The position numbers were made by a program, and so were the translations under genes. A stretch of DNA of 64,000 nt, from positions 62,001-126,000 of the forward strand of contig NZ_PDKN01000006.1 in NCBI RefSeq assembly GCF_004116335.1, read 5' to 3'. The DNA is from Candidatus Marinarcus aquaticus. GTDB taxonomy: Bacteria > Campylobacterota > Campylobacteria > Campylobacterales > Arcobacteraceae. The notes under the pieces were generated by a model. That model saw only the letters and a program-made list of their open reading frames with translations. It ran no database searches and was not told the origin of the DNA. This document shows positions 29,247-46,797 of this stretch, piece by piece; the first letter of the stretch is position 1, and each line of letters starts with the position of its first letter.

Positions 29247-29738
29247 ATGGCAGTAGATACAGTAAATTCAGAAGTAGGGGTTGATAAAAACGGAAATCCG
29301 TATACGAAAGCGATCAGTAATGATAAGTTAACGAATGAAGATTTCTTGCAGTTGATGCTTCAAGAGTTGAAACTTCAAGATCCAACCAAACCAATGGACT
29401 CAACTCAAATGATGGATTCTCAATTGCAAATGTCAACACTTGAAACCAATATGGCAACCATTGACGCAATGAAATCGTTACAAAGCTCTTTTGCACAAAC
29501 CGCACTTTCAAGTGCATCAAATATTATTGGGCAAATTATTGAAACGGGTGAAATGTCTGAAGCAGGTGTACAAAAACAATTTAAAGTGAACTCTGTTGAG
29601 ATTATTAATGGAACACTCTATATGCAAGGGCACCAAATTGTAGGATACAATGAAGAGACAGGGGAACTTCTTTATAAAGCTGAACCTGATTTTATTGAAT
29701 ACAACAAAATTACAAGAGTAATGAACGGAAGTGTATAA
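29247..29738 (+). CDS. flgD: Flagellar hook cap protein FlgD
   Basis: Scaffold for hook assembly. The N-terminal half has the FlgD block DFLQLMLQELKLQDPTKPMD followed by TQMMDSQLQMSTLETN (about 33-70). At 163 aa it lacks the larger Fn3/Tudor C-terminal domain seen in the 231-aa E. coli protein, keeping only a short beta part. It overlaps the first hook gene (TAATG), so cap and hook are translated together. Confidence 0.95.
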   Translation: MAVDTVNSEVGVDKNGNPYTKAISNDKLTNEDFLQLMLQELKLQDPTKPMDSTQMMDSQLQMSTLETNMATIDAMKSLQSSFAQTALSSASNIIGQIIETGEMSEAGVQKQFKVNSVEIINGTLYMQGHQIVGYNEETGELLYKAEPDFIEYNKITRVMNGSV

Positions 29739-31213
29739 TGATCAGTGCTTTATATAATGGAATGTCGGGTTTAGGATCATTCCAAAAAGCCCTTAATACT
29801 CAGTCAAATAATATTGCCAACATCAATACCGTGGCATACAAAACAGACAGAATATCGTTTGTGGATATGATGTACCAAAATCGAATGGGTAAAGGTACGG
29901 CAACCGTAGAAGTTCAAAAAAACTTTAAAGAGGGTGATTATAAACTTACCAATAATCCTTATGATTTAGCCATTGAAGGTACTGGGTATTTTGTGGTGTA
30001 TGATCCTGAAAAAGATGAAATTTATTATTCAAGAGCGGGTGATTTTAAGAAATCGGTTGATGGTTTTTTAGTCACTCAAACAGGAGAGCATGTTCGAGGT
30101 ATTCCTGCAGCTGTTACTGGGGATATGATTATGAATGAGGATTTTCCTAATTTTATGGCCTCTCAAATCATCAAATCAGCAACCAGCGTTCAAAGTGTGA
30201 ATGTCAGAGCTACGGATTATAACTCCTCAGCAACCGATGAAATCGATCCGGTTACTGGAATTAAGACGAAAGAATCCTCTGCCATTATCGCAGATATAGA
30301 ACTGTTAAAAGCGGATTATAGAAAAAAACTGCAAGCGTATGCTAACAATCCAACAAATGCTGGAACAGCACCAACGAATCAAGTGACAGCGATTACGGTT
30401 GCAGATTATGCAACGCAGTTAAATGACGCCAATGACTCTGTTTCAGTGACAGTGAATAATACAAAATATACGCAAAATTTTGAAGGGGATGCAGAGACTA
30501 CCATGCAATTTTTAGCTGCAAAAATAGCTAAAGCAGAAGGTGTTAAAGATGCCAGTTTTGATCCTGCAACAGGAACCATTACTGTAGATACCCTGATTCC
30601 AGGTGAGAATATCAAAATTAACTCATTGCTGGTCAATGATACAGCGTATACTTCAATTGCTACTACAGCTGCTGTTGCAGGAAGCGGTGAAGCGGCGATG
30701 AACAGCAGTTATGCTGCTTTAGAAGCTGCCATGACCAGAGCCAATGCAGAGTTAACCCAAGTGGTAACAGATATTACAATTCCTCCTAAAGGAACAGCCA
30801 CAACTGGTGTAACCGTTGATGTTGATGGTTATGGTGATTTGCAATTGAATTTAACGGAATTGGGAATCTCAGATAATCAGTTCAGTAATTTCATGGTAGA
30901 TGATGGTATTATTTACATGGTTCAAGGGGATAATAAGTATGCTATTGCAAAAATCCCAACGGTTGCATTTAACAATGAAAGTGGACTGGTTCCTGAAGGG
31001 GGACGACTCTTTAAGGGTACAAAAGATGCGGGGGAACCTATCAATGCTGATTATGGTTCAAAAGTTGTAGGGAAAACCATAGAGTTGAGTAACTCAAACA
31101 TGGGAGAGAGTTTGGTGGAATTGATGACCTTCCAAAGAGCTTATGAAGCAAACTCACGCTCAATTACAACTGCGGATGAGTTTTTAAACATTGCCATACA
31201 ACTTAAAAAATAG
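29738..31213 (+). CDS. flgE: Flagellar hook protein FlgE, paralogue 1
   Basis: Axial-family hook protein of 491 aa. N-terminal SNNIANINTVAYKTDRISFVD and NPYDLAIEGTGYFVV, C-terminal ELMTFQRAYEANSRSITTAD. Between them is an inserted region that includes VSVTVNNTKYTQNFEGDAET (about 232-251), also found in the larger paralogue next door. Coupled to flgD. It corresponds in position to the second hook gene next to flgD in H. pylori (HP0908). Whether it forms the hook or a minor junction piece cannot be told. Confidence 0.85.
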   Translation: MISALYNGMSGLGSFQKALNTQSNNIANINTVAYKTDRISFVDMMYQNRMGKGTATVEVQKNFKEGDYKLTNNPYDLAIEGTGYFVVYDPEKDEIYYSRAGDFKKSVDGFLVTQTGEHVRGIPAAVTGDMIMNEDFPNFMASQIIKSATSVQSVNVRATDYNSSATDEIDPVTGIKTKESSAIIADIELLKADYRKKLQAYANNPTNAGTAPTNQVTAITVADYATQLNDANDSVSVTVNNTKYTQNFEGDAETTMQFLAAKIAKAEGVKDASFDPATGTITVDTLIPGENIKINSLLVNDTAYTSIATTAAVAGSGEAAMNSSYAALEAAMTRANAELTQVVTDITIPPKGTATTGVTVDVDGYGDLQLNLTELGISDNQFSNFMVDDGIIYMVQGDNKYAIAKIPTVAFNNESGLVPEGGRLFKGTKDAGEPINADYGSKVVGKTIELSNSNMGESLVELMTFQRAYEANSRSITTADEFLNIAIQLKK

Positions 31214-31321: not shown

Positions 31322-33268
31322 ATGATTGGTGCATTATGGACAGGAATTAGCGGATTAGCTTCGCATCAAGCAGCTTTAGATAATGAAGCAAATAATATCG
31401 CCAATGTTAATACAATAGGGTATAAAGCTACAAGAATTGCATTTGCCGATCAAGTGTATCAAAACAGAATTGGTAAAGGTTCTAAAGTATTAGATGCTGA
31501 AAAAATTTATGAACAAGCAAGTACTAAAAAAACAGGTGTATCTTACGATATCGCTTTGAAAGGTGATGGTTTTATCACCGTAACAGACAGAAATAACGGA
31601 GGAGGAACCTCTGAGACCTACTATACACGAGCGGGTAACTTACGTATGGGTGATAATGGTACACTGCAAGATGCCAACGGAAATGAAGTCCAAGGTTGGG
31701 TATTGAGTAGTATTGATCCTGATGCTGATGTTGTGACAACCAATCCAAATATTACAATTTTTACAAGTGATTATACCAAACTTGTCAGTTCACGAATCAT
31801 CAATCATGGTACATATATTGAAACCATTGCAGCAAAAACAACCGATTATAACAATACGGCTAAAGGGGATTCTCATCAAATTTTTGCAGGAGCTGGGTAC
31901 AATACTGAATCTGGAAAAATTTCCGATATTCAAGAGTTGCAAAAAGCATATGCGGCGGCATTGCAAAAGTATCAAGAAGATCCAGATGGGGCATCTGCAA
32001 CTTCAGTAGCTCAAGTAACGTATATAGACTTTGAAGATAAAGCTGCAGGACACTTAGCTGACGATAATGACTTTATCTCAGTATATATTAATAACAAACG
32101 ATATACACAACAGTTTGATACTTCGTATGAAAATACAATGAAAAAGCTTGCAGACAAACTGACAGAAGCGATTCCTGGTATTAAAGTTTATACCGTTGAT
32201 GCAACAGCTGCACACAATGAAAGTACAGCCGATGCAGATGTAGCAAGCGGTGTTTTAAAAATTGAGTCACTGATTCCAGGTCAACCATTTATTGTAAGTA
32301 ACGTATTAACGACCTCTGGGCAAACTGAAATCAATGGTACAGTTTTAACATCAGATGGTGTTGCTGCGGTTGAAGGAAGCGGATTGGGTGCTTTAGAATC
32401 GATTCGTGATGCATTATCAGAAGCTGTCAGTGGAAAACAAAGAGATGTTTTCTTACCAAGTGATTTGTTTACTTTAACCCCATCAACAACAACACTCAGT
32501 GCCGATGCAGGGTTTGATTATCGAGTAACAATTTGGGATAATGATGCCAAACAAAATGTAACTATACCAACTGCGGGTCCATTAACTCTTGGGCCATACC
32601 TAACTGGTACAGATGCTTTAACCAATATGGCAGATATTGTGACTCAAATTAATGGTGACCCAGAGTTATCTTTATATTTGAATGCATCAATTGTGAATAA
32701 TGCATTGGTGATTGAGACAAAAGACTCAAACTTTGATGTTGAATTCAGTGGAGTTCTAGATGAGACATCAGGTCCTCTTGGTTTGATTGAGAAAAATGCA
32801 ACACACAGTGGACGAGAAGGTGCAGGTGCTGAATTTATTGAAATGGTGACTAAAATTGACCAAACGTCATCAAAAGACTCTTTACAGTTAAGACTGGATA
32901 CTTTAGGAATTTCAGATACTGCATTTGGAGACTTTTCAGTTGATTCTAATGGGGTGATTACCATCAGACAAGATGGGGTTGATTATGCCATTGGTCAAAT
33001 ATCGATTGCAATGTTTAACAACAATCGTGGTTTAGAATCTATTGGAAACAACCTTCTTCGAAAAACAAATGAATCTGGGGATCCAATTTACAGTCTTAAC
33101 AATGCAAAAGCAGCAGATGTTGAAAATAAATATGTGGAACTCAGTGGTGCAGACTTAAGTAAAAGTTTGGTTAACTTGATGGTATTCCAAAGAGGGTTTG
33201 AAGCCAATGCAAAATCAATCACAACTTCAGATGAGTTGTTAAACACACTGATCAATTTAAAACGATAA
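31322..33268 (+). CDS. flgE: Flagellar hook protein FlgE, paralogue 2
   Basis: Larger hook protein, 648 aa. N-terminal NEANNIANVNTIGYKATRIAFAD and DIALKGDGFITV, C-terminal NLMVFQRGFEANAKSITTSD. The inserted domain includes ISVYINNKRYTQQFDTSYEN, clearly similar to paralogue 1, plus an extra surface domain around residues 380-500. Its size suits the large hook proteins of Campylobacterota. Ribosome site aaggat; a 108-base gap with a hairpin separates it from paralogue 1, and a 13-bp hairpin follows it. Confidence 0.9.
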   Translation: MIGALWTGISGLASHQAALDNEANNIANVNTIGYKATRIAFADQVYQNRIGKGSKVLDAEKIYEQASTKKTGVSYDIALKGDGFITVTDRNNGGGTSETYYTRAGNLRMGDNGTLQDANGNEVQGWVLSSIDPDADVVTTNPNITIFTSDYTKLVSSRIINHGTYIETIAAKTTDYNNTAKGDSHQIFAGAGYNTESGKISDIQELQKAYAAALQKYQEDPDGASATSVAQVTYIDFEDKAAGHLADDNDFISVYINNKRYTQQFDTSYENTMKKLADKLTEAIPGIKVYTVDATAAHNESTADADVASGVLKIESLIPGQPFIVSNVLTTSGQTEINGTVLTSDGVAAVEGSGLGALESIRDALSEAVSGKQRDVFLPSDLFTLTPSTTTLSADAGFDYRVTIWDNDAKQNVTIPTAGPLTLGPYLTGTDALTNMADIVTQINGDPELSLYLNASIVNNALVIETKDSNFDVEFSGVLDETSGPLGLIEKNATHSGREGAGAEFIEMVTKIDQTSSKDSLQLRLDTLGISDTAFGDFSVDSNGVITIRQDGVDYAIGQISIAMFNNNRGLESIGNNLLRKTNESGDPIYSLNNAKAADVENKYVELSGADLSKSLVNLMVFQRGFEANAKSITTSDELLNTLINLKR

Positions 33269-41939: not shown

Positions 41940-42239
41940 ATGAATATCACCGACGTATCAAACAGTTTAAACTTAGGTAATAACGTCCAAAAACAAAACA
42001 CCTCAGGAAAAGTTGCAGGTGATTCTTTTGAAAATATTTTAAAAAATGCAATTTCGGATGTGAACCAATCACAAGTTCAAGCATATGATGCCATGGAAGG
42101 CATTGCCACAGGTAAGGTGAAAAACTTACAAGAGGCTGTTCAGAAAATTGAAGAAGCAGAATTGAGTTTGAGACTCTCTTTAGAGGTAAAGAATAAAGCA
42201 ATCAGTGCCTATAAAGAAGTGATGAGAATTCAGGTTTAA
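41940..42239 (+). CDS. fliE: Flagellar hook-basal body protein FliE
   Basis: Links the MS ring to the rod. 99 residues with DSFENILKNAISDVNQSQVQ and AVQKIEEAELSLRLSLEVKN and the terminal KAISAYKEVMRIQV, which is the FliE signature (A-Y-x-E-I-M-x-M-x-V). aaaggag before the ATG. Directly upstream of flgC, a common pair. Confidence 0.95.
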   Translation: MNITDVSNSLNLGNNVQKQNTSGKVAGDSFENILKNAISDVNQSQVQAYDAMEGIATGKVKNLQEAVQKIEEAELSLRLSLEVKNKAISAYKEVMRIQV

Positions 42240-42716: not shown

Positions 42717-44936
42717 ATGACTAAAGAGATGAGTTTTTTAAACATCGCTCCCCAAGAGTCTAAAAATGACTCTGCATCTAAAAGCAATACTTTTAAAAGT
42801 GAAGCTAAAACGGCACCATCTCTGTTTGATACCATGCTAAATGATGCACAAAAAGAGGTGACAACAACACCTGCTCAAACGAAGAGTGCTGAATCAAAAA
42901 CAACATTGCAAGAAGAACCAAAAGAGCAAAGCAACACTGCATTGGATAAAAAAGTAGAAACTTCTACGAATGATACTAAAAAAGTAGACAGTGAAGTTTC
43001 TACAACGCCCAAAACAGATAATAAAGCAAAGCCATCTGAAACGACTGAAATAAAAACAAATGATAAAGATTTAGAGAATTCTAAAAAAGATACAAAAAAT
43101 TCTACTGTACAAAACAAACAACTTTCCCTACTTGATAGATTGATGATGGATGCACAACAAAGCATTGATAATGAAAATAATCAAACAGGCGAAGTCGAAA
43201 CTTCAAAAGGTACAGCTATAGCAAAGAGTATCAAAGATGTGGTACAAGATGCGAAACAAGTGGATGTTTTAGAAAACAGTAAAAATTCTGATGGGGTTAA
43301 AGAGAGTGTAGAGGGTAAAAAAGAGCTTATTGATGCTTTAAAAACAGCTGAGACCACGGCTTCTTCACAAGCAACAACAGACGTAAGTGAAGAAACCAAC
43401 ACTGAAACAAAAAAAGCAGAAGTGAATACTTCAACCAAACAAGTTGAAATTTTAAAAGAGGGCTCTTTATTAGATAAATTGGTTGAGCAAGCCAATAAAA
43501 CCATTTCACAAGAGCAAAACAGTAAAAATGTAGCATCAAAGATTGACACTGTTCTTCCAACAAAACCAGATGTTAAGGCAGAAACAGCCGTAATACCATC
43601 AACAAAAGTGGCCACACAAGCTGAAAATGTCAGTGCTGCACAAACAACAAACAAACCTGAAAATATAAATGCAAAAGTGGTACCTGAGGTTGTTCAAGTC
43701 AACGGTGGTGATGAAAGTGTTGAAGCTGTTCTTGATGAGGTTAAAAATAAGGCGACTCAATCCTCACAAAAAGGTGCAGAACAAGTTGTAACAACTACAA
43801 AAACAACCACTGTAAATCAAGAAACTGAAGTAAAAACTCTTCTTTCTCAAAATACAGATGCACAAACTCAAAATATAAAGAATGAAAAAGTAGCGCAAGA
43901 GTTGGCCAAACTGAATAGTGCAGAAGAACCCGTAAAAGTAGCTGTGATTAAAGATGATGCTAAAGTCGTAGAAGCAAAAGCTGAAAATAAATCCTTGTTG
44001 GACAGATTGATTGACCAAACCAAACAAAATATTCAAAAAACACAAGAGAATACACAACAAACACACAATAACAGTGTTAACAAAGAGGCTACACCAAAAG
44101 GTTCATCTGACTCGCTCATTAATAATATCTATTTGACCTCGCAACAAAGTGCCTTAAACAAAGCTTCACTTGAGAATGCTTATAATGCAAAAAAAGTGCT
44201 CACAGAGGGAACATCGGTTAAAGATGTTCAAAAGAGTGCACAAATGTTGGATTTAGGTTTAGAAGATGCGCAACTAATCAAAGAGCAAGAGTTGAAAAAC
44301 ACGCTTAAAGAGGAGTTTATTTCTAAACTTAATTTCTCAAAAGATGTATTAAAATATGATTTACAAAAAATCAATGAAGTCATCTCTCAAAGTGCAAAGA
44401 CAACCTCTTTGAATAATATCAATATTGCACAAGATGTAGAGATAAACCTCTCTTCAACGGCAGTGTATAATATTCAAAACAGAATTGTGGGTGCACAACA
44501 GCAAATGAATACCATGATGTCTGATGTTGCAAGAAACATGTACTTAAACTATAAGCCTCCTGTAACTGCATTTAGAATGAACTTGAACCCTGCACATTTA
44601 GGAAACATTGCTGTTTTAATTAAAAATGAGAAAGAGAATGGCTTAAGTATCAGCTTGAATATGTCCAACCAAAATACTTTGGATTCATTTGTGGATAATC
44701 AAGCAGCATTAAGAGCGGCATTGGCTCGAAATTTTAACACCGATTCCAATATCAATTTGAGTTTCAATATGCAAGAAGGTGGCTCTGAACAACAAGCCAG
44801 TTCAAGTAACAGTAACAATGCTCAACAAGACCAACAAAATTCGAAAGGGCAACGTCATACCACATCGGACGTATTAGACAGTCTCAATCACAAAGCACAA
44901 GCTGAGGCAGATGCGGAACCTGTTAACTATATGTAA
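42717..44936 (+). CDS. fliK: Flagellar hook-length control protein FliK
   Basis: Secreted ruler and substrate-switch protein. 739 aa, far longer than E. coli FliK (375). The first about 570 residues are low-complexity and rich in Lys, Thr, Glu, Ser and Gln. The conserved Flg_hook domain is at about 615-690 (PPVTAFRMNLNPAHLGNIAV and later NFNTDSNINLSFNM). Four copies of a short motif of the form S-L-L/F-D-x-x-x-x-x-A/T are spread through the long part near residues 35, 137, 250 and 426. Length fits a long hook, as expected for the large FlgE. Last base overlaps fliR. Confidence 0.9.
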   Translation: MTKEMSFLNIAPQESKNDSASKSNTFKSEAKTAPSLFDTMLNDAQKEVTTTPAQTKSAESKTTLQEEPKEQSNTALDKKVETSTNDTKKVDSEVSTTPKTDNKAKPSETTEIKTNDKDLENSKKDTKNSTVQNKQLSLLDRLMMDAQQSIDNENNQTGEVETSKGTAIAKSIKDVVQDAKQVDVLENSKNSDGVKESVEGKKELIDALKTAETTASSQATTDVSEETNTETKKAEVNTSTKQVEILKEGSLLDKLVEQANKTISQEQNSKNVASKIDTVLPTKPDVKAETAVIPSTKVATQAENVSAAQTTNKPENINAKVVPEVVQVNGGDESVEAVLDEVKNKATQSSQKGAEQVVTTTKTTTVNQETEVKTLLSQNTDAQTQNIKNEKVAQELAKLNSAEEPVKVAVIKDDAKVVEAKAENKSLLDRLIDQTKQNIQKTQENTQQTHNNSVNKEATPKGSSDSLINNIYLTSQQSALNKASLENAYNAKKVLTEGTSVKDVQKSAQMLDLGLEDAQLIKEQELKNTLKEEFISKLNFSKDVLKYDLQKINEVISQSAKTTSLNNINIAQDVEINLSSTAVYNIQNRIVGAQQQMNTMMSDVARNMYLNYKPPVTAFRMNLNPAHLGNIAVLIKNEKENGLSISLNMSNQNTLDSFVDNQAALRAALARNFNTDSNINLSFNMQEGGSEQQASSSNSNNAQQDQQNSKGQRHTTSDVLDSLNHKAQAEADAEPVNYM

Positions 44937-45747: not shown

Positions 45748-46797
45748 ATGGCTGATAACGACGACGAAAAAACAGAAGAACCCACCCCAAAGAAGATTGA
45801 AGATGCGAAAAAAGAAGGTAACGTCTCTAAATCAATGGAAGTTGTAGGGGCTTCGACTTTGTTTTTTGGTTCGGTCTATTTGCTTTTTTTCTCCTCTTTT
45901 TCAATGCTTGAAATTCAAAAAATGATGCGTTTTGTTTATAGTTTTATTGGTCAAGAGATGGACAGTACGGTCTGGTATGCTATTACACACACGATTGTGC
46001 GAACAGCTTTGTATGCCTTGATGCCTATTTTTGCACTGGTGGTGATATTGACATTTGTATTTAACTGGGTGCAATTTGGCATGATTATGATTCCCATAAA
46101 ATTCAAACTGGAAAAATTAGATCCCATCTCTGGAATGAAGAATGTATTCTCAGCTAAAAAAGGATTAGAGGCTTTAAAACTGACCTTTAAACTTTTGATC
46201 ATATTTGCAGTGATGGTCATACTTTTTTTACTTACAGGGGACACTTTCTTGGCCATGATGGATAAAGAAGTCAGTGCTTCTTTAGATGCAATGATTACAT
46301 TGAGCATGTATTTCCTCTCTACCATCCTTTTAATTATTATAATTTTCGCTATAATAGACTTTTATTTTACACGGTTTTACTATTTAAAATCATTGCGCAT
46401 GAGTAAACAAGATATTAAAGATGAATTTAAAAATATGGACGGGGATCCTCAGGTAAAAGCACGAATTCGAAGAATTCAAATGCAAATGTCAGCAAAAAGA
46501 ATGATGGCCAATGTTCCTGATGCCGATGTTGTTATTACTAACCCAACACACTATGCGGTTGCTTTAAAATATGATTCTAAAACAACATCCGCACCGGTGG
46601 TGGTTGCAAAAGGGATTGATTTTATTGCCAGCCGTATTAAAGAGATTGCCAGAGAAAATAGCGTACCAATTATTGAGAACCCTTCATTGGCAAGAGCATT
46701 GCATGATCAAATTGAGGTGGATCAACAAATTCCAGAAGAGTTTTATAAAGCCATTGCAGAAATTTTCTCATATGTGTATGAACTAAAAAAGAAATAA
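45748..46797 (+). CDS. flhB: Flagellar export switch protein FlhB
   Basis: Inner-membrane export apparatus protein that switches from hook to filament substrates after self-cleavage. The opening DEKTEEPTPKKIEDAKKEGNV is typical, four membrane helices lie at about 30-210, and the autocleavage site NPTH is at about residues 265-268 (VVITNPTHYAVAL). 349 aa is standard. Gene order fliK-fliR-flhB puts ruler and switch side by side. Confidence 0.97.
   Translation: MADNDDEKTEEPTPKKIEDAKKEGNVSKSMEVVGASTLFFGSVYLLFFSSFSMLEIQKMMRFVYSFIGQEMDSTVWYAITHTIVRTALYALMPIFALVVILTFVFNWVQFGMIMIPIKFKLEKLDPISGMKNVFSAKKGLEALKLTFKLLIIFAVMVILFLLTGDTFLAMMDKEVSASLDAMITLSMYFLSTILLIIIIFAIIDFYFTRFYYLKSLRMSKQDIKDEFKNMDGDPQVKARIRRIQMQMSAKRMMANVPDADVVITNPTHYAVALKYDSKTTSAPVVVAKGIDFIASRIKEIARENSVPIIENPSLARALHDQIEVDQQIPEEFYKAIAEIFSYVYELKKK

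Follow-up and report, generated by a model that had tools for sequence, protein, structure and literature searches.

Architecture of the fliK locus

The window, meaning the whole stretch of 64,000 nucleotides of Candidatus Marinarcus aquaticus analyzed here, contains a row of rod/hook and flagellar export genes in the order fliE, flgC, fliK, a gene for a 249-aa membrane protein, and flhB. By its place and sequence, the membrane protein is putatively FliR. The 739-aa product is assigned to FliK, with a predicted role in hook length control and the export switch. The features of the locus are as follows, where GRM stands for gate recognition motif.

29247–29738, forward strand: flgD, comparison gene with the GRM-like sequence NEDFLQLMLQEL (F33) (Pfam FlgD; sequence)
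41940–42239, forward strand: fliE, comparison gene with the GRM-like sequence GDSFENILKNA (F30) (Pfam FliE; sequence)
42717–44936, forward strand: fliK, 739-aa hook-length control protein (Pfam Flg_hook and place among flagellar genes)
42729–42749, forward strand: N-terminal hydrophobic stretch MSFLNIA, FliK residues 5–11, candidate first export signal (sequence)
44103–44246, forward strand: helical subdomain 3' of the last motif copy, FliK residues 463–510, containing SVKDVQKSAQMLDLGLED (AlphaFold pLDDT mostly at least 90; conserved columns)
44538–44783, forward strand: Flg_hook (type III specificity-switch) domain, FliK residues 608–689 (Pfam PF02120)
45748–46797, forward strand: flhB, proposed docking partner (aligned to solved FlhB)

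The match to PF02120 exceeds its curated cut-off (E 1.6e-9). In front of this switch domain lies a long ruler part that is mostly disordered: the pLDDT is below 50 for 436 of the 739 residues, nearly all before residue 460.

A second Flg_hook protein is encoded elsewhere in the genome (L002, G000:C2:158821-159030, open frame of 651 aa), and most genomes of the family have two Flg_hook matches as well; the SLLD motif pattern described below is absent from this second protein in the loci scanned. FlgD is short (163 aa), with only its N-terminal region matched by Pfam, and two adjacent FlgE-like hook/rod proteins are encoded at 29738–31213 (491 aa) and 31322–33268 (648 aa). Both carry Flg_bb_rod and FlgE/F/G D1 domains, and each is a candidate for the main hook protein.

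A helix-type motif occurs four times in FliK

The ruler part of FliK harbors four copies of a helix-type motif, S-L-[LF]-D-x-[LM]-[LVIM], which start at residues 35, 137, 250, and 426.

42819–42860, forward strand: copy 1, SLFDTMLNDAQKEV, residues 35–48, candidate gate recognition motif FDTML (28.9 bits; AlphaFold helix 36–48)
43125–43166, forward strand: copy 2, SLLDRLMMDAQQSI, residues 137–150, middle class (31.6 bits; AlphaFold helix 138–151)
43464–43505, forward strand: copy 3, SLLDKLVEQANKTI, residues 250–263, middle class (24.1 bits; AlphaFold helix 251–268)
43992–44033, forward strand: copy 4, SLLDRLIDQTKQNI, residues 426–439, last class (28.1 bits; AlphaFold helix 427–447)

Copy 4 is located 313 residues ahead of the C terminus. 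The four sequences had been reported in a sequence-only reading of this DNA, and they are found exactly and in frame within the ORF 42717–44936 (S35, S137, S250, and S426); the spacings given there as about 100 to 175 residues were measured as 102, 113, and 176.

The copies score far beyond chance expectation. With a matrix built without the genus of the window, they score 22.7 to 30.5 bits, and the runner-up site in FliK scores −2.6 bits. When all six frames of the window are scanned, the four copies reach 24 to 32 bits and the next match 7.1, and a 22-residue profile run against the whole 2.53 Mb genome finds them with E values of about 1e-5, followed by a next best hit at E = 1.15. The N-terminal part of FliK was also shuffled 2000 times with dipeptides preserved and scored with the full matrix. 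One lone shuffled site reached 32 bits, as high as the real copies, so it is the occurrence of four copies, not of one, that is improbable; the second-best site stayed at or below 12.4 bits, compared with 24.1 bits for the weakest real copy. A DNA-level repeat was looked for at the four copies and none was found; hence, the copies of the window are not recent duplications.

The extended motif was considered as a general export signal and rejected, because it is absent from every other protein of the genome. What it has in common with other exported proteins is solely the F-x-x-x-hydrophobic core.

An AlphaFold2 model of FliK, calculated from 42 orthologues, is of low confidence overall, with a mean pLDDT of 51. 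Residues 1–420 form a low-confidence chain with values mostly near 30, and the helical subdomain and switch domain past residue 460 are well predicted. Up to residue 447, the predicted helices are the four at the motifs listed above plus one at residues 390–400. S-x-x-D is a classic helix capping box. The copies thus read as amphipathic helices, which would be capped by this box and expose a hydrophobic face formed by positions 3, 6, 7, 10, and 14. The residues F, L, M, I, and W make up 34% of the copies versus 15% of the chain.

Conservation and selection across the Arcobacteraceae

Searching 104 genomes of the family with the C-terminal part of FliK revealed an orthologue in 90. The records matching this C-terminal alignment stem from Arcobacter, Aliarcobacter, Malaciobacter, Halarcobacter, Poseidonibacter, and further Arcobacteraceae. 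From these genomes, 86 fliK loci were extracted, and 72 full-length proteins were counted, the FliK of the window among them. The first copy (SLFDSLL, near residue 33) is present in all 72, with SLF being invariant. At least two copies occur in 68 of the 72 and at least three in 59, the maximum being seven; the remaining four orthologues hold only the first copy above threshold.

Selection was assessed on 14 pairs of related species. The pN/pS ratio amounts to 0.127 for the seven core codons, 0.408 for the next seven, 0.605 for the linker, and 0.204 for the C-terminal 230 residues, which is a nearly fivefold gap between core and linker, though one open to ascertainment bias since the copy sites were picked by a matrix trained on all proteins. 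The motif cores are under strong purifying selection. Conservation in related Arcobacter, on which the sequence-only reading had staked its proposal, is herewith borne out for the whole family.

Two variations were seen among the orthologues. In one of them (L115), a 153-bp unit is tandemly repeated 4.5 times, and the same stretch bears four motif copies at distances of 50 to 53 residues, demonstrating that copies can be gained by duplication. Four proteins of one genus (L065, L068, L087, and L096; genus g20) carry SLFD[TA]L[LV] at residue 6 besides the copy at residues 30–31, so that in these proteins the hydrophobic N-terminal signal would seem to have adopted the motif.

Classes, positions, and spacing of the copies

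First, middle, and last copies are not equivalent, as their conserved residues differ. The first class has F at position 3 in all 76 copies, typically S or T following the D, and is mostly located at residues 32–34. The middle class exhibits L at position 3, R or K at 5, A at 10, and K at 11. The last class has mostly M at position 3, Q or K at 5, and N or S at 10, and it keeps a distance of about 311 residues from the C terminus (interquartile range 305–315 among the orthologues). Taking the 175 later copies together, position 3 is L in 60%, M in 31%, and F in 5%.

Evenly spaced measuring marks, i.e. ticks on the ruler, were considered and rejected: the 5th and 95th percentiles of the spacing among the orthologues are 45 and 322 residues, and the number of copies does not depend on the length of the protein (rho −0.02).

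The first copy as a probable gate recognition motif

The GRM of early flagellar export substrates is the subject of Evans 2013 and Bryant 2022 (PMC8983047). In Salmonella, the GRM of early export subunits docks on a pocket of FlhB-C, that of FlgD being residues 36–40; it lies at least 30 residues from the N terminus in all rod/hook subunits, and the early subunits also need a hydrophobic signal located 26 or more residues ahead of it (PMC8983047). Copy 1 shows the same arrangement. It offers F37 and the following hydrophobic residues up to L41, lies at least 30 residues into the chain, and is preceded by MSFLNIA, whose L8 is located 29 residues before F37. The F-x-x-x-hydrophobic pattern recurs at residues 30–49 of proteins from the same cluster, namely FlgD (EDFLQLM, F33), FliE (DSFENIL, F30), FlgC (FEEIL, F49), and FlgE (SFVDMM, F41). 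In other Campylobacterales families, the pattern is found near FliK residues 30–50 of most sampled members, with GEFLSMVLDA, KDFLSVLFSQ, and EEFLKSLIQA as examples, and FliK of Escherichia coli contains DFLALLSEAL with the same pattern.

The pocket that receives the GRM is formed by FlhB residues A286, P287, A341, and L344 (PMC13344023). Alignment of the nearby encoded FlhB of the window to solved FlhB shows that A, P, and A are kept and that L344 is replaced by F. Copy 1 is thus very probably the GRM of FliK, which together with the hydrophobic N terminus would dock on the FlhB-C pocket and start export. FlgD, FlgE, and the export gate had all been put forward as partners; for the first copy, the GRM pattern and position favor the gate, and for the later copies any partner is putative. 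The sequence-only reading also suggested that the motif is sampled repeatedly during passage of the ruler, which may be the case.

Two features set the Arcobacteraceae motif apart from the GRM as known. The latter is described near the N terminus of a subunit, whereas the motif family recurs two to seven times in most orthologues here, and in the later copies L or M stands in for F, within a longer conserved frame, S-L-x-D-[RK].

The later copies: possible roles in docking, hook binding, or structure

Copies 2–4 share the helix pattern of copy 1 without having F as the first hydrophobic residue, and they are located far from the N terminus (residues 137, 250, and 426). Hence, by sequence they do not qualify as GRMs, and they are not classed as such here. 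They may nevertheless descend from it. All copies would then constitute one family of short amphipathic helices set in a disordered ruler chain, the later ones, with L or M for the key F, being weaker docking helices derived from the GRM. While the chain is threaded, these would in turn bind anew to FlhB-C or to its vicinity and retain FliK close to the gate. The last copy, by virtue of its nearly fixed distance from the switch domain, would help to present this domain to FlhB-C once the hook is long enough. The shared helix pattern, the selection on the cores relative to the linker, the predicted helices, the anchoring of the last class, and the short hydrophobic helices seen in FliK of sister families argue for such docking; the four orthologues with the first copy only argue against it. 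Drawing on sequence, the structural model, and analogy, we lean slightly to the doubtful side regarding this role of the later copies, and we infer the partner, affinity, and pausing that it entails. The explanation as a whole, with copy 1 as GRM and the later copies as docking helices, is evenly poised between right and wrong in our judgment.

The analogy comes from Salmonella, where a duplication of FliK residues 111–205 at the start of the switch domain in a linker deletion restored FlhB-C crosslinking and switching, with shorter hooks (PMC6972891). Because its authors consider linker and conformational effects, the parallel is suggestive: the suppressor may act via linker length or conformation rather than via a motif.

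The later copies might instead hold on to the inside of FlgE or to the FlgD cap, with copy 1 still acting as GRM, and thereby slow the ruler and make the measurement reliable. This is the strongest rival to gate docking, and a close one, because FliK of Salmonella binds FlgD and FlgE via its N-terminal ruler domain, and deleting residues 129–159 weakens FlgE binding and lengthens hooks (PMC6972891). The corresponding part of E. coli FliK contains SLSALFAMLPG and PTLFTKLTSEQL. The missing F and the conserved polar residues of the middle copies' own (R/K5, A10, and K11, absent from copy 1) suggest a different or modified partner, and the confinement of the motif to FliK within the genome fits hook binding as well. 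However, the last copies hold their distance to the switch domain and not to the N terminus, which suits a role at the gate side better, and ruler length is uncorrelated with copy number. Binding of the hook is therefore regarded as possible, with the balance of evidence tilted against it.

Without any external partner, the copies could serve as structural or antiaggregation helices that render the chain compact by pairing mutually or with the C-terminal domain. The predicted helices, the hydrophobic enrichment in a polar chain, and the association of Salmonella FliKN and FliKC in solution (PMC6972891) are all in line with this, but the conserved polar residues S1, D4, and R/K5 and the class-specific differences exceed what a generic helix needs, making this reading improbable. 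That the extra copies are a functionless by-product of duplication in a low-complexity gene, for which the tandem units of L115 with a copy each could be cited, is very hard to believe and largely refuted by the selection test, in which the cores are more constrained than even the folded C-terminal domain; in addition, the copies of the window are devoid of a DNA-level repeat, and at least two copies are kept in nearly all orthologues.

FliK of other families and known rulers

The Arcobacteraceae matrix yields only weak matches in other families, which makes the extended motif an Arcobacteraceae feature in this sample. A broad pattern is clearly above shuffles only in three proteins of other families (L160, L183, and L185), with L170 and L175 near 0.02; hence, a repeat outside the Arcobacteraceae is not established by counting. 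In FliK of sister families, several positions do bear short hydrophobic helices that are conserved. Family f19 has an S/T-[IL]-[LF]-x-[KN]-[IL]-[MI] site near residue 217, which occurs three times in L185, and, ahead of the switch domain, an E-x-[IV]-L-x-x-I-K site; family f9 has NVFQDLINQKI and NLENLL, and family f15 has tL..LL.geK sites. These sites are similar in kind to the Arcobacteraceae motif and may or may not be homologous to it.

The piece SVKDVQKSAQMLDLGLED at 44103–44246 of the window resembles the N-domain NITDLLKLSKKYDLGLEKI of an f19 FliK (L184 residues 75–190; hhalign P = 1e-4, probability 58%). This would fit a linker with the motifs that separates the export signal from an old N-domain. 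In another FliK (L188, family f9, genus g42), the linker includes several near-identical tandem units of about 80 residues (NIEKINLKDKPVEKIQPQQFHNDKEIKSEIINNKN...), which lack the SLLD motif; duplication can thus alter the length of the ruler in f9, too.

FliK of Salmonella is likewise a secreted ruler with an N-terminal export signal, a long N-terminal part, and a C-terminal switch domain, and duplication of an internal segment can improve its docking to FlhB (PMC6972891). In contrast, no family-wide repeated motif is described there (PMC6972891), and FliK of the Arcobacteraceae has almost double the length and is for the most part disordered up to residue 420. The injectisome rulers YscP/SctP are also secreted and possess a switch domain, but they belong to another protein family. 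YscP has two separate export signals, which do not equal a helix motif repeated along the ruler. SctP was reported to carry a GRM (PMC8983047).

Implications for hook-length control

The sequence-only reading knew of no such repeat described for FliK, and a search of the open-access literature retrieved none either. The export motif itself has been described before. What appears to be new is that it recurs along the ruler, is strongly selected there, and falls into classes that depend on position; we infer the function of the later copies. What slows FliK or holds it in the channel, such that contact between its switch domain and FlhB is made only at a sufficient hook length, is still debated. 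A ruler with a series of weakened gate-docking motifs would let FliK re-dock stepwise on FlhB-C and prolong its stay in long hooks, until the last, position-fixed copy hands over the switch domain; we consider this full scenario somewhat unlikely. The conserved and discrete motifs stand out in a group whose FliK N-terminal part is otherwise hardly alignable. They offer specific residues as targets for mutation and peptides for testing, and the motif would serve as a sequence marker for the FliK export signal in the Campylobacterales.
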